Assembly: GCF_001724605.1 (NCBI RefSeq)
Contig: NZ_MEEX01000007.1
Span: forward strand, 114,560-178,559
DNA from: Phenylobacterium sp. SCN 70-31
Lineage (GTDB): Bacteria > Pseudomonadota > Alphaproteobacteria > Caulobacterales > Caulobacteraceae
Direction of reading: 5' to 3'
Length of the DNA stretch: 64,000 bases
The translations under genes were made by a program, and so were the position numbers. The notes beneath the pieces were generated by a model. That model had not been told where the DNA came from, searched no databases, and was given only the letters and a program-made list of their open reading frames with translations. Of the stretch, positions 10,417 to 30,245 are shown one piece after another. The stretch's first letter is position 1. The number at the start of each line of letters is the position of its first letter.

Positions 10417-10536
10417 ATGATCGCAATCCTGGCCGCCGCAGCGCTTCAGGTCGGGGCGCCCCCGGCCGATGTGGGTTCGGCGGGCGCCGTCGGAGGGCGG
10501 GATCGTCACCGTGCCCATCTACTTCGATCCGCCGAA
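10417..10536 (+). pseudogene. decayed TonB-C-like paralogue
   Basis: The ATG at 10417 follows a good AGGAAGGAGG and encodes MIAILAAAALQVGAPPA, nearly the same leader as the gene at 9656. After about 20 codons the frame holds no domain. In the next frame, bases around 10490-10535 encode SEGGIVTVPIYFDPPKR, matching the last strand of the 9656 domain (AGGTVLIPIRFILPKG). The middle of the domain is missing and the two ends are out of frame, which is what an internal deletion leaves. Confidence 0.7.
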
Positions 10537-10543
10537 GCGAACA

Positions 10544-10569
10544 AAAATCGGAGTCATGATTCCGATTTT
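10544..10569. repeat. 9-bp inverted repeat
   Basis: AAAATCGGA and TCCGATTTT are separated by 8 bases, between the decayed gene and the acyl-CoA dehydrogenase. It could be a weak terminator of the former or an operator of the latter. Confidence 0.4.
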
Positions 10570-10571
10570 GT

Positions 10572-10591
10572 TGACGCTGACGTCAGCGTCA
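10572..10591. promoter_or_regulatory. perfect 20-bp palindrome upstream of acyl-CoA dehydrogenase
   Basis: TGACGCTGACGTCAGCGTCA is perfectly symmetric and contains nested TGACG half-sites. It lies 81 bp upstream of the dehydrogenase ATG at 10673. The most likely role is an operator for a fatty-acid or acyl-CoA-responsive regulator; which regulator cannot be told. Confidence 0.5.
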
Positions 10592-10672
10592 TCTTTTCTT
10601 CCCCGCGCGTCCATGCGTATAGGGTCGGCGAAACCGATACGGCGTAAGCCGCCCAAGCTTCCGGAGGATCCG

Positions 10673-11878
10673 ATGAACCTCGACTTCACCCCCGAAGAGA
10701 ACGCCTTCCGCGACGAGGTCCGGACGTTCATCAAGGACAACTATCCCGCCGAACTGCGCAAGGCGCAGGACGAGGGCCGGGCGCTGACCAAGGAGGAATA
10801 CCTCCTGTGGCACAAGGTGCTGGCCAAGAAGGGCTGGGTGGCGCCGAGCTGGCCGAAGGAACTGGGCGGCACCGACTGGACGCCCACGCAGAAGTACATC
10901 TGGTCGGAAGAGACCGCGCGCGCCGACTGCCTGGGCCTGATGCCCTTCGGCCTCTCGATGCTGGCGCCGGTGCTCTACACCTTCGGCACCGACGAGCAGA
11001 AGAAGCGGTTCCTGCCGGGCATCTACAACGGCGAGGTCTGGTGGTGCCAGGGCTACTCCGAGCCGGGCGCCGGGTCGGACCTGGCCTCGCTGAAGACCCG
11101 GGCCGAGCGGGTGAAGGGCGACGACGGCAAGGAATACTACATCGTCAACGGCCAGAAGACGTGGACGACCCTTGGCCAGCACGCCGACTGGGGCTTCTTC
11201 CTGGTCCGCACCGATCCCGACGCCAAGCCGCAGGCGGGCATCTCGTTCCTGCTGATCGACATGAAGACGCCGGGCATCACCGTACGCCCGATCATCACGC
11301 TGGAGGGCGGGCACGAGGTCAACGACGTGTTCCTCGACAATGTGAAGGTGCCGGTCGAGAACCGCATTTTCCACGAGAACCAGGGCTGGACCTGCGCCAA
11401 GGCGCTGCTGGCGCACGAGCGCAGCGGCATCGCCGGCGTGGCGCGCTCGAAGCGCAATCTCGAGAAGGTGCGCGAGATCGCCGGCACCGAGCGGTCGGAC
11501 ACCGGATCGGCGCTGCTGGCCGACGCCTTCTTCCGCCGCAAGGTGGCCGAGCTGGAGATCGACCTTTCGGCGCTGGAGTTCACCGAGCTTCGGACGCTGG
11601 CCGGCGAGTCGAGCGGCAAGGGGCCCGGCCCGGAAAGCTCGATCCTCAAGATCAAGGGAACCGAAATCCAGCAGCGGCTCCAGGAGCTGGCGCTGGAGGC
11701 GGTCAGCCACTACGGCGCGCCGTTCCTGCGCGACCTGCGCGGCTCGAACGTGAGCGTGGGCCCGGACTACGCCGACGGTCTCGCCGGAGAGATGTTCAAC
11801 GGCCGCAAGACCTCGATCTACGGTGGGTCCAACGAGATCCAGCGCAACATCATCGCCAAGGCCGTCCTGGGGCTCTAA
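10673..11878 (+). CDS. acyl-CoA dehydrogenase family protein (first of a pair)
   Basis: A 401-residue flavoprotein that oxidises acyl-CoA thioesters at C2-C3. The order is an N-terminal helical domain (NLDFTPEENAFRDEVRTFI), a middle beta-domain with the flavin-binding segment CQGYSEPGAGSDLASL (about residues 125-140), and a C-terminal helical domain ending in YGGSNEIQRNIIAKAVLGL. The start is ATG at 10673 with GGAGG 8 bases upstream. Its partner is at 12443; such pairs often form alpha2-beta2 enzymes, but the DUF559 unit now lies between them. Substrate chain length or type is not evident. Confidence 0.93.
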   Translation: MNLDFTPEENAFRDEVRTFIKDNYPAELRKAQDEGRALTKEEYLLWHKVLAKKGWVAPSWPKELGGTDWTPTQKYIWSEETARADCLGLMPFGLSMLAPVLYTFGTDEQKKRFLPGIYNGEVWWCQGYSEPGAGSDLASLKTRAERVKGDDGKEYYIVNGQKTWTTLGQHADWGFFLVRTDPDAKPQAGISFLLIDMKTPGITVRPIITLEGGHEVNDVFLDNVKVPVENRIFHENQGWTCAKALLAHERSGIAGVARSKRNLEKVREIAGTERSDTGSALLADAFFRRKVAELEIDLSALEFTELRTLAGESSGKGPGPESSILKIKGTEIQQRLQELALEAVSHYGAPFLRDLRGSNVSVGPDYADGLAGEMFNGRKTSIYGGSNEIQRNIIAKAVLGL

Positions 11879-11922: not shown

Positions 11923-12020
11923 CCCCTCCCCCTTGCGGGGAGGGGTTGGGGTGGGGGTGTCGACCCCAACCTCCGCGATTGCACCCCCACCCCCGGCCCC
12001 TCCCCGCAGGGGGGGAGGGG
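11923..12020. repeat. pair of inverted palindromic repeats (REPIN-like)
   Basis: A 40-base GC-rich unit at 11923-11962 contains the hairpin CCCCTCCCC-CTTG-CGGGGAGGGG and a GGGGTGGGGGTGTCG tail. An inverted, slightly diverged copy sits at 11982-12020, 20 bp away. The first copy is identical over all 40 bases to that at 30033-30072. The second copy supplies the GGGGAGGGG ribosome site for the DUF559 gene. Confidence 0.85.
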
Positions 12021-12024
12021 AGGC

Positions 12025-12435
12025 ATGAGGTTGGAGCGCACGCCGGGAGCGATCCACAAGTCCGATCGCGCTGAAAAAGCCGCGCGTCGGATGCGCCGCG
12101 AGCCGACCTACTCGGAGCGGGCGCTGTGGAAGGTTCTGCGCAAGAGCGACCTCCATTTCCGCCGCCAGGCTCCCTTCGGCCCGTACACCGTGGACTTCGT
12201 CTGCCATCGCCACCGGCTCATTGTCGAACTGGATGGCGGCGTGCACGACCTGCCTTCGGTTGCGGCCCGCGACACGGCGCGCGAGGCTTGGCTGACAGGG
12301 CGCGGCTATCGGGTTATTCGCTTCCGGAACAGCCAGCAGCCCGATGAGATCCTTCAGGTGATCCATGCGCGGATCAGCGCGGACACCCCCACCCCTAACC
12401 CCTCCCCGCAAGGGGGAGGGGAACTCATGGAGTAA
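12025..12435 (+). CDS. DUF559 (Vsr/PD-(D/E)XK-like) endonuclease-domain protein
   Basis: A 136-residue protein with a DUF559 domain: RREPTYSERALWKVLRKS (residues 23-40), FRRQAPFGPYTVDFVCHRHR, then LIVELDGGVH (about 66-75) with the Asp...Glu-x-Asp nuclease-like residues, and GYRVIRFRN (about 95). The family is related to very-short-patch-repair endonucleases; its cellular role is unknown. Repeats flank the gene on both sides. The upstream repeat provides the ribosome site, and the downstream one encodes the C-terminal TPTPNPSPQGGG. It interrupts an acyl-CoA dehydrogenase operon, so it was probably acquired by insertion. Confidence 0.88.
   Translation: MRLERTPGAIHKSDRAEKAARRMRREPTYSERALWKVLRKSDLHFRRQAPFGPYTVDFVCHRHRLIVELDGGVHDLPSVAARDTAREAWLTGRGYRVIRFRNSQQPDEILQVIHARISADTPTPNPSPQGGGELME
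12383..12421. repeat. palindromic repeat copy inside the DUF559 3' end
   Basis: A single inverted copy of the 40-base palindromic unit; compared with the copy at 11923-11962 it differs by about one inserted base. It is translated as the last residues of the DUF559 protein, and the gene stops 12 bases later. Confidence 0.85.
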
Positions 12436-12442
12436 GCGCCCC

Positions 12443-13585
12443 GTGGATTTCAGCTTCACCGAAGAACAGTCGATGCTGCGCGACACGGTCGCCAGCTACC
12501 TGGCCGACCACTACGACTTCGACAAGCGTCGCGCCGTCGTGACCAAGGAGCCGGGCTGGCGGCCCGAAGTGTGGAAGGCCTTCGCCGAGGAGTTGGGCAT
12601 CCTGGGCGCGCCGTTCTCGGAGGACCTGGGCGGCCTAGGCGGCGGCCCGATCGAGAACATGATCGTGATGGAGGAGTTCGGTAAGGCGCTGGTCGTCGAG
12701 CCCTACCTCGGCACGGTGGTGATCGGCGGCGGCTTCCTGAAGCATTCGGGCCATGCCGGCGCGGCCGACCTGATCGGCGGCATCATCGGGGGCCAGAACA
12801 TCCTCGCCTTCGCCTACGCCGAGCCCAAGGGCCGCTACAATCTGGCGGCGCTGGAGACCACGGCCAAGAAGGACGGCGCGGGCTGGGTTCTGAACGGTCA
12901 CAAGGCCGTGGTGATCGGCGCGCCGTTCGCCACGCACCTGATCGTGACCGCCCGGACGTCGGGCGGCCCGCGCGACGCGGGCGGGATTTCGGTGTTCCTG
13001 GTCGAGAAGGGCGCCAAGGGCGTGTCGACCCGCGACTATCCGACCGTGGACGGCAATCGCGCCTCGGAAGTGTATCTGGAGAACGTGTCGGTGGGCGCCG
13101 ACGCCCTGATCGGCCCGGCCGACGGCGGCCTGCCGCTGATCGAGAAGGTGGTGGACGAGGCGATCGCCGCCACCTGCGCCGAGGCCTGCGGCGTGCTGCG
13201 CAAGCTGCACGAGGGCACGCTGGAATACACCAAGCAGCGCAAGCAGTTCGGCGTGCCGATCAGCTCGTTCCAGGTGCTCCAGCACCGGATGGTCGACATG
13301 TTCATCAACCTCGAGCAGTCGATCTCGATGACCTACATGGCCAATATCAAGGTCACGGACGACGCCGAGCGCGCCAAGGCCGTCTCCGCGGCCAAGGTGC
13401 AGATCGGCAAGGCCTGCAAGTTCGTGGGCCAGAACGCCATCCAGCTCCACGGCGGCATGGGCATGACCGACGAGATGGCCATCGGCCACTACTTCAAGCG
13501 CGCCACCATGATCGAGGGCGCGTTCGGGTCGGTCGACCACCATCTGGCCCGCTACGAGGGCCTGAGCCTGGGTCAGGCGGCGTAG
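12443..13585 (+). CDS. acyl-CoA dehydrogenase family protein (second of a pair)
   Basis: A 380-residue flavoprotein. It starts at GTG 12443 (VDFSFTEEQSMLRDTVASYL), because the upstream in-frame sequence is only translated repeat; the ribosome site GGAG lies in the last codons of the DUF559 gene. The C-terminal motif QLHGGMGMTDEMAIGHYFKR is typical. The middle domain is less conserved than in the partner at 10673, with no SEPGAGSD-type loop (AYAEPKGRYNLAALETTAKK instead). This fits a pair in which flavin and substrate contacts are divided between subunits. A terminator follows at 13608. Confidence 0.92.
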   Translation: MDFSFTEEQSMLRDTVASYLADHYDFDKRRAVVTKEPGWRPEVWKAFAEELGILGAPFSEDLGGLGGGPIENMIVMEEFGKALVVEPYLGTVVIGGGFLKHSGHAGAADLIGGIIGGQNILAFAYAEPKGRYNLAALETTAKKDGAGWVLNGHKAVVIGAPFATHLIVTARTSGGPRDAGGISVFLVEKGAKGVSTRDYPTVDGNRASEVYLENVSVGADALIGPADGGLPLIEKVVDEAIAATCAEACGVLRKLHEGTLEYTKQRKQFGVPISSFQVLQHRMVDMFINLEQSISMTYMANIKVTDDAERAKAVSAAKVQIGKACKFVGQNAIQLHGGMGMTDEMAIGHYFKRATMIEGAFGSVDHHLARYEGLSLGQAA

Positions 13586-15447: not shown

Positions 15448-15842
<395 letters not shown>

Positions 15843-15845
15843 TTC

Positions 15846-30032: not shown

Positions 30033-30072
30033 CCCCTCCCCCTTGCGGGGAGGGGTTGGGGTGGGGGTGTCG
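30033..30072 (+). repeat. palindromic repeat copy (identical to 11923-11962)
   Basis: All 40 bases are identical to the copy upstream of the DUF559 gene. It lies in the 337-bp gap between murC and murB, with an inverted partner at 30208-30245. Confidence 0.88.
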
Positions 30073-30207
30073 GCCTGATGTCCGGCGTTCGGCAGGGCGT
30101 CCCGCGCGACGCGTTTCAGCACGTTATACTTCCTGGCGAATCTCGGACCACCGAATTGGGAGTTCGCCGATCTTCCCTCTCGCGCACCCTGTATGCACGC
30201 CGGGACC

Positions 30208-30245
30208 ACACCCCCACCCCAGCCCCTCCCCGCAAGGGGGAGGGG
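30208..30245 (-). repeat. inverted palindromic repeat copy upstream of murB
   Basis: The reverse complement matches the 40-base unit at 30033 with about one substitution. The two inverted copies enclose 135 bp with no gene recognised, suggesting a non-autonomous repeat-bounded element. Confidence 0.85.

Follow-up and report, generated by a model that had tools for sequence, protein, structure and literature searches.

Why should the gene of a small DUF559 nuclease, enclosed by palindromic repeats, stand between two acyl-CoA dehydrogenase genes in Phenylobacterium sp. SCN 70-31, and what could have brought it there? The window analyzed in this study, a stretch of 64,000 nucleotides, carries the upstream dehydrogenase gene at positions 10469 to 11878 (plus strand; longest open reading frame) and the downstream one at 12443 to 13585 (plus strand; GTG start assumed). 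The nuclease gene between them (12025 to 12435, plus strand) encodes 136 amino acids. On its left, one end of the unit (11923 to 11962, plus strand) consists of a hairpin with a G-rich tail facing the gene. The hairpin itself, at 11923 to 11945, reads CCCCTCCCC-CTTGC-GGGGAGGGG, and the window copies fold only moderately better than their shuffled versions (z −1.6 to −4.3). The right end (12382 to 12421, minus strand; hairpin at 12399 to 12421) is an inverted copy of the left end and overlaps the C-terminal codons of the gene. In each end of approximately 40 bp the hairpin is outermost, and a G-rich or C-rich tail points to the DUF559 gene.

An earlier note on this DNA had described the gene as enclosed by inverted copies of one repeat of about 40 bases, and the left copy as identical over 40 bases to 30033 to 30072. 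Both descriptions hold, the latter with agreement throughout. The note regarded the copy at 30033 as having no gene, which is true, but it overlooked the inverted partner at 30223; together they make a complete gene-less pair (30033 to 30245) with ends at 30033 to 30072 and, inverted, at 30206 to 30245, separated by an unrelated spacer. Two other claims need revision. The ribosome site was ascribed to the upstream outer copy, but the ribosome-site-like stretch, AGGGGAGG, comes instead from a third, degenerate palindrome (11997 to 12019, within a feature at 11982 to 12020 on the plus strand) immediately 5' of the gene. This third palindrome is not conserved, as it was not seen in the stretches inspected of the orthologous inserts L105, L113, L115 and L123. 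The open reading frame does end in the repeat-coded TPTPNPSPQGGGELME, as claimed, but another reading frame is used in two of the 12 orthologues (those of G048 and G001), so that the coding of the C-terminus looks incidental and a functional role for it was rejected.

The exact 23-bp palindrome occurs in the window at 11923 (minus), 12399 (plus), 30033 (minus) and 30223 (plus). When up to 3 mismatches were allowed, 5 matches were found in the window where 0.01 were expected, and the strain's own 4.89-Mb genome held 14 copies and none of the reversed pattern. Three of these 14 are at the DUF559 gene, 8 form four gene-less inverted pairs (starts 97 to 190 bp apart), and 3 are single, two of the single ones being near contig starts. 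A second DUF559 gene in the same genome has a different hairpin, again present on both sides.

The protein matched Pfam DUF559 (PF04480) with 105.5 bits (cut-off 20.6). The only other Pfam match was MTES_1575, under its cut-off, and the HUH/Tyr transposase domain (PF01797) was absent from the window protein in this search. Residues D57, E68, D70 and H74 are invariant in alignments of 29 and 48 proteins. A profile search matched 3hrl ("Endonuclease-Like Protein", E 1.2e-38) and 3r3p ("Mobile intron protein", E 2.5e-4), the latter being, we presume, I-Bth0305I. The window protein is therefore predicted to have a PD-(D/E)XK, Vsr-like nuclease fold. Earlier work placed YcjD, the E. coli relative discussed below, in the PD-(D/E)XK superfamily (PMC1189080). 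An identity as Vsr mismatch endonuclease (TIGR00632) was rejected with 20.7 bits against an NCBIfam cut-off of 97.85, as was membership in a PADLOC defense family, since the window protein (P0001) gave no match and only the protein of L212 gave a weak one, to DpdF.

The dehydrogenase site was then compared among relatives. We examined 84 orthologous sites in the genus, of which 81 were scorable and 3 unscorable. As the earlier note had anticipated, the unit separates two genes that are otherwise neighbors: DUF559 lies between them at 12 sites and is missing from 69, where the gap measures 27 to 429 bp. The insert is 520 to 567 bp long at five of the 12 sites and 470 to 486 bp long at the others, and every one of the 12 has hairpins at both ends in the stretches inspected. 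The case that the note had named as counting against it, relatives that all possess the gene here but lack the repeat, was thus not encountered. Several of the 69 gene-free sites retain one hairpin or a fragment, and L120 retains the right end. Genome-wide, the palindrome (up to 2 mismatches) has a median of 10.5 copies in the 12 gene-bearing genomes and 0 in the 69 others (p 4e-9; kinship uncorrected and the site's own copies counted in). There are exceptions on both sides. In gene-bearing G014 the copies are those of the site alone, while G011 (15 copies), G030 (10) and G025, G032 and G061 (5 each) have no gene at this site. Among the 12 orthologues the median dN/dS is 0.21 (63 unsaturated of 66 pairs), with pN below pS in 66/66 pairs; the nuclease is under purifying selection.

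Is this arrangement peculiar to one site? DUF559 matches (E≤0.001, some of them weak) occur in 69 of 101 genomes of the genus, with up to 11 copies, and in 114 of 149 genomes of the family sample, with up to 13. The earlier note had predicted that the repeat would be enriched at such genes elsewhere, and this was borne out at three levels. For the genus and family, the left flank was compared with the reverse-complemented right flank, and 47 of the 58 comparable loci among the best-scoring ones scored at least 15, versus 0/54 window pairs taken 700 bp farther out. Left/right pairs taken across genomes reach at least 15 in 18.6% of cases, because the ends of different loci resemble one another. 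Among named genomes, the best 80 of 554 confirmed loci were analyzed; in 61 of these 80 the inverted-end score was at least 16, compared with 2/1029 pseudo-centers within the same loci and 7/232 other open reading frames. A hairpin flanks both sides in 52/80 of these best-scoring named loci versus 0.8% of controls. Within four genomes, all 23 loci compared (8 of 11 copies in G043, 7 of 9 in G224, 5 of 13 in G201 and 3 of 10 in G177) showed inverted matches of score at least 21.

The best 80 of the 554 named loci span the alpha-, beta-, gamma- and deltaproteobacteria, Planctomycetales, Chloroflexi, Gastranaerophilales, Marinimicrobia, Rokubacteria and Binataceae. A DUF559 gene with matching hairpin ends thus recurs across phyla and is a general arrangement. 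In 19 of the 80, matching inverted ends were not found at this threshold; these include loci of two Legionella species, Serratia, Erwinia and Pseudomonas rhizoryzae. Of the five Bradyrhizobium loci one falls in this group, as does the P. haematophilum copy. A plasmid collection contained 44 DUF559 records, of which eight were examined, two of them from E. coli. Inverted-end scores were 57 for Pseudanabaena, 47 for Deinococcus, 24 for Azospirillum and 23 for Sphingomonas, with a weak 13 for Picosynechococcus; in the N. gonorrhoeae record the motif flanks DUF559 on both sides in direct orientation.

The two ends of one locus match each other, yet they differ between loci (CCTTCTCCC, CCTCTCCCC, CCTCCTCCC and CCCTCTCTC types), a frequent form being CCCTCTCCC-loop-GGGAGAGGG-TTGGGGTGAGGG. 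The ends co-vary with the nuclease: end similarity correlates with protein similarity over 104 loci (r 0.46), within the genus (r 0.77, 21 loci) and in the named set (r 0.32, 61 loci), values reached in 0 of 2000 permutations each. Classified by orientation, 73 of 139 loci match better inverted, 31 direct and 9 about equally, and 26 match in neither way or have short flanks. A strict pattern of hairpin plus third strand had the expected sense in 53/138 loci on the 5' side of the gene and in 68/138 on the 3' side, and the other sense in 25 and 25. Direct repeats of score at least 40 occur in twenty loci, and in some of them a complete dimer stands on either side (L021, 159 bp, 99%; L018, 124 bp, 98%). 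Such strong direct repeats would fit either entry of the unit into a dimer with duplication of that dimer, or a use as homology arms.

Copies within single genomes bear on movement. In Caulobacter G224, L274 shares 92.9% identity with L277 (534 bp) and 91.6% with L279 (545 bp), and for L275 and L276 the value is 92.9% (549 bp); three units in G201 are about 92% alike. In both genomes the similarity ends at the outer hairpins or within approximately 20 bp of them, and the flanks are unrelated. Units have been duplicated into unrelated places, which shows that the endonuclease travels with the repeat, as suggested earlier. At the L277 site, two Caulobacter species (G224 and G221) carry the unit, and a third (G177) has one 21-bp hairpin, CCCTCTCTCTTAGAGAGAGGG, in flanks that share 94% and 92% identity with their G224 counterparts. 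Elsewhere the same site holds a dimer of another hairpin family (G152, G484) or another single hairpin (G159). Two directions are conceivable, entry of the unit into a solo hairpin or departure of the unit with one hairpin left in place; the solo hairpin of G177 may be a deletion product, and it may have arisen by plain recombination between the two hairpins of a unit.

No clean empty form was found for a second Caulobacter site (L279). At sites orthologous to it, L370 and L373 have copies of a CGTC-type REP where G224 has the DUF559 unit. The gene-less dimers of G011, G001, G027, G033 and G043 lie in differing flanks and have genome-specific spacers, and in G011, whose copies are the most alike, the spacer is shared. 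No fixed-length target duplication was evident by eye in the gene-less dimers and duplicated units.

What kind of repeat is this? The intrastrand triplex motif (BoxC/PIT/TM_ECO) has been reported in more than 260 genomes, the E. coli motif forms a triplex in vitro, and no mobility gene was found around the motif sites by those who studied them (Holder et al. 2015, PMC4666352). The DUF559-unit repeat shares with BoxC/TM the C/T-rich and G/A-rich hairpin arms followed by a G-rich third strand, the latter being present by sequence, as well as the occurrence in inverted pairs (five inverted type A/B pairs in E. coli K-12) and at E. coli ycjD. It differs in being tied to a nuclease gene, no mobility gene having been reported around the published BoxC/TM sites (PMC4666352). 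On this shared architecture, the window variant (CCCCTCCCC) probably belongs to the BoxC/TM motif, although it is not detected by the generic 21-mer motif pattern.

That generic pattern was used to scan 240 alphaproteobacterial genomes, 60 with DUF559 (E≤1e-10) and 180 without. At least 3 motifs occur in 32/60 of the former versus 11/180 of the latter (p 2e-14), and the total is 944 versus 48 for the reversed pattern. With the DUF559 limit set at E≤0.001 the counts are 35/77 versus 8/163, and with one genome per family 21/37 versus 5/102. There are 18 DUF559 genomes among the 60 with no generic motif, the window's own genome included, and at least 5 motifs occur in 8/180 genomes without DUF559.

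In E. coli K-12, the gene ycjD stands between fabI and sapF and is annotated as encoding a DUF559 protein. Two motifs lie on its 3' side, a degenerate one at the stop codon and an intact one before fabI; no motif was found upstream within the stretch inspected. The protein of strain KE47 passes the NCBIfam YcjD-type model, and here an intact motif lies at the stop codon and an inverted one about 200 bp farther on. Relative to two strains, the motif copy at soxR constitutes an insertion of 178 bp, which goes along with a 24-bp direct repeat of a terminator hairpin, and the query for this copy was covered by at least 80% in 155 of 5371 genomes with a match. One low-coverage strain has efflux-pump genes upstream of fabI, in a stretch too short to judge ycjD loss. 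In E. coli 20.1 (L311, gldA-yijF), yijF is directly preceded by an IS621 (IS110-like) transposase gene, which is situated in the motif slot or close to it.

Taken together, the locus would be a selfish unit of about 500 bp, one DUF559 PD-(D/E)XK gene with a hairpin repeat of the intrastrand-triplex (BoxC/TM) kind on each side. We propose the following course. The nuclease would recognize the hairpin together with the G-rich third strand and introduce a nick or a cut at that point, and in the repair of this break a repeat-bounded unit or dimer would be copied in. In this way the unit could arrive either at a place where a hairpin already stands, much as in homing, or at a new one, and short gene-less dimers that share its ends could increase in number too. 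We hold it rather probable that the nuclease acts on the repeats in this way, with recognition and cutting being inferred and cutting as the presumed driver of movement. The repeat, then, may well be mobilized by the DUF559 nuclease, which is a good candidate for the enzyme behind the spread of a widely found class of bacterial repeats. Several observations speak against such a selfish nuclease: 19 of the 80 best-scoring named loci have no matching ends, E. coli ycjD has the motif on one side only, some loci match better in direct orientation, ends of different genomes resemble one another, no consistent target duplication was seen, 18 of the 60 DUF559 genomes have no generic motif, and there are repeat-rich genomes that have no gene at the dehydrogenase site (G011 and G030) or no DUF559.

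How does the unit compare with known systems? REP/REPIN sequences with their RAYT genes (REPtrons, TIRtrons) likewise have one small nuclease gene between palindromic repeats and many gene-less repeat copies elsewhere in the genome, often paired. However, the DUF559-unit enzyme is of the PD-(D/E)XK type whereas RAYT belongs to the HUH/Tyr transposases, a GTAG tag is missing from the hairpin, and the RAYT-type genes of the genus have other ends. The unit works like a REP/RAYT system but is not a member, because the search for the HUH/Tyr protein that defines such systems came out negative. Like an insertion sequence, it has terminal inverted repeats around an enzyme gene and dispersed copies in unrelated flanks. 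With the Vsr-like homing endonuclease domain (3r3p) it shares a remote sequence relation and perhaps, judging by the one L277 site, a pattern of occupied versus unoccupied sites; it differs in having no intron and in being bounded by repeats that would be both target and ends. CGTC-tagged alphaproteobacterial REPs have been reported as hairpins, mostly dimers, that lack a dedicated transposase (Di Nocera et al. 2013, PMC3733652). Both they and the window repeat are hairpin repeats of alphaproteobacteria, but tag and stem differ; at one site, two relatives have CGTC-type REPs in the place of the unit. An identity of the window repeat with the CGTC REP was rejected, as its stem base is C/G-only and has no CGTC tag, whereas the CGTC REP has an 8-9-bp stem starting with A/T pairs.

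In the open-licence literature searched, as far as its accessible parts go, no link between DUF559 and a repeat has been reported. We tentatively suggest, at somewhat less than even confidence, that DUF559/COG2852 nucleases including E. coli YcjD could form a separate class of mobile element, in which a lone PD-(D/E)XK nuclease homes into and multiplies triplex-capable hairpin repeats, these acting at the same time as its ends, its target and its arms of homology. Such an element would supply the mobilizer that BoxC/TM has so far lacked.

The most serious alternative is that the repeats owe their movement to something else, be it a RAYT-like Y1 transposase, a different transposase or host repair, with DUF559 as a passenger that sits in bounded units or insertion hot spots. 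We regard this as unlikely, if by no means far-fetched. Repeat-rich sites are common to unrelated families: at gldA-yijF and gabP-gabT in E. coli (L304-L307 versus L298 and L301), a BoxC/TM pair in one strain faces REP/BIME in others. These are alternatives rather than simple insertions, as if unrelated repeat families were using the same slots. The presence of a CGTC-type REP where another genome has the DUF559 unit, at one Caulobacter place, is of the same kind, and some genomes have many copies with no gene at the dehydrogenase site or no DUF559 at all. On the other hand, DUF559 is the gene found repeatedly inside such ends (61/80 of the best 80 of 554 versus 7/232 other open reading frames), and the ends co-vary with it. 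RAYT in particular is an unlikely mover in this genus, because Y1_Tnp occurs in 20/101 genomes, versus 69 with DUF559, and has different ends. The RAYT-like genes of the genus (L075-L097) have ends of their own, of the GGTGACA/GGGGACA type, and 13/23 score at least 20.

A second alternative is that DUF559 is a Vsr-like host repair nuclease, the hairpins acting as terminators or being tolerated, or the nuclease treating lesions there. The Caulobacter DUF559 protein VsrA has been proposed as a VSP-repair enzyme, and a methylase mutant depends on it to induce SOS (PMC12907096). The weak match to the Vsr model and the purifying selection also point this way, but the Vsr score is far under the cut-off, and the gene is patchily present, in up to 13 copies per genome, with matching ends on both sides that are duplicated along with it. 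A pure repair role is disfavored and quite improbable, because copy number, patchiness and duplicated units are left unexplained. A chance adjacency of C/G-rich repeats has practically nothing to commend it and was rejected: the motif has a simple composition and is common in certain genomes, but the window count, the genome count with its reversed pattern and the controls (distal windows, pseudo-centers and other open reading frames) all oppose it.

DUF559 is a widespread family named for its unknown function, and its link to BoxC/TM, a repeat without a reported mobility gene, makes a long-standing question directly testable in E. coli K-12 (ycjD) and in Caulobacter. If the selfish-nuclease reading is true, the set of enzymes known to spread REP-type repeats would gain a Vsr-like hydrolytic nuclease. 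Caulobacter VsrA would then merit a second look, since its SOS phenotype might reflect the activity of a mobile-element nuclease.

Two minor observations were made in the window. An Rfam identity for the repeat was rejected, the sole match at gathering level being bacterial RNase P class A RNA (15449 to 15844, 287 bits). Finally, the longest open reading frame of the downstream dehydrogenase begins within the repeat region (12365 to 12442), and the repeat can thereby mislead gene-start calls.
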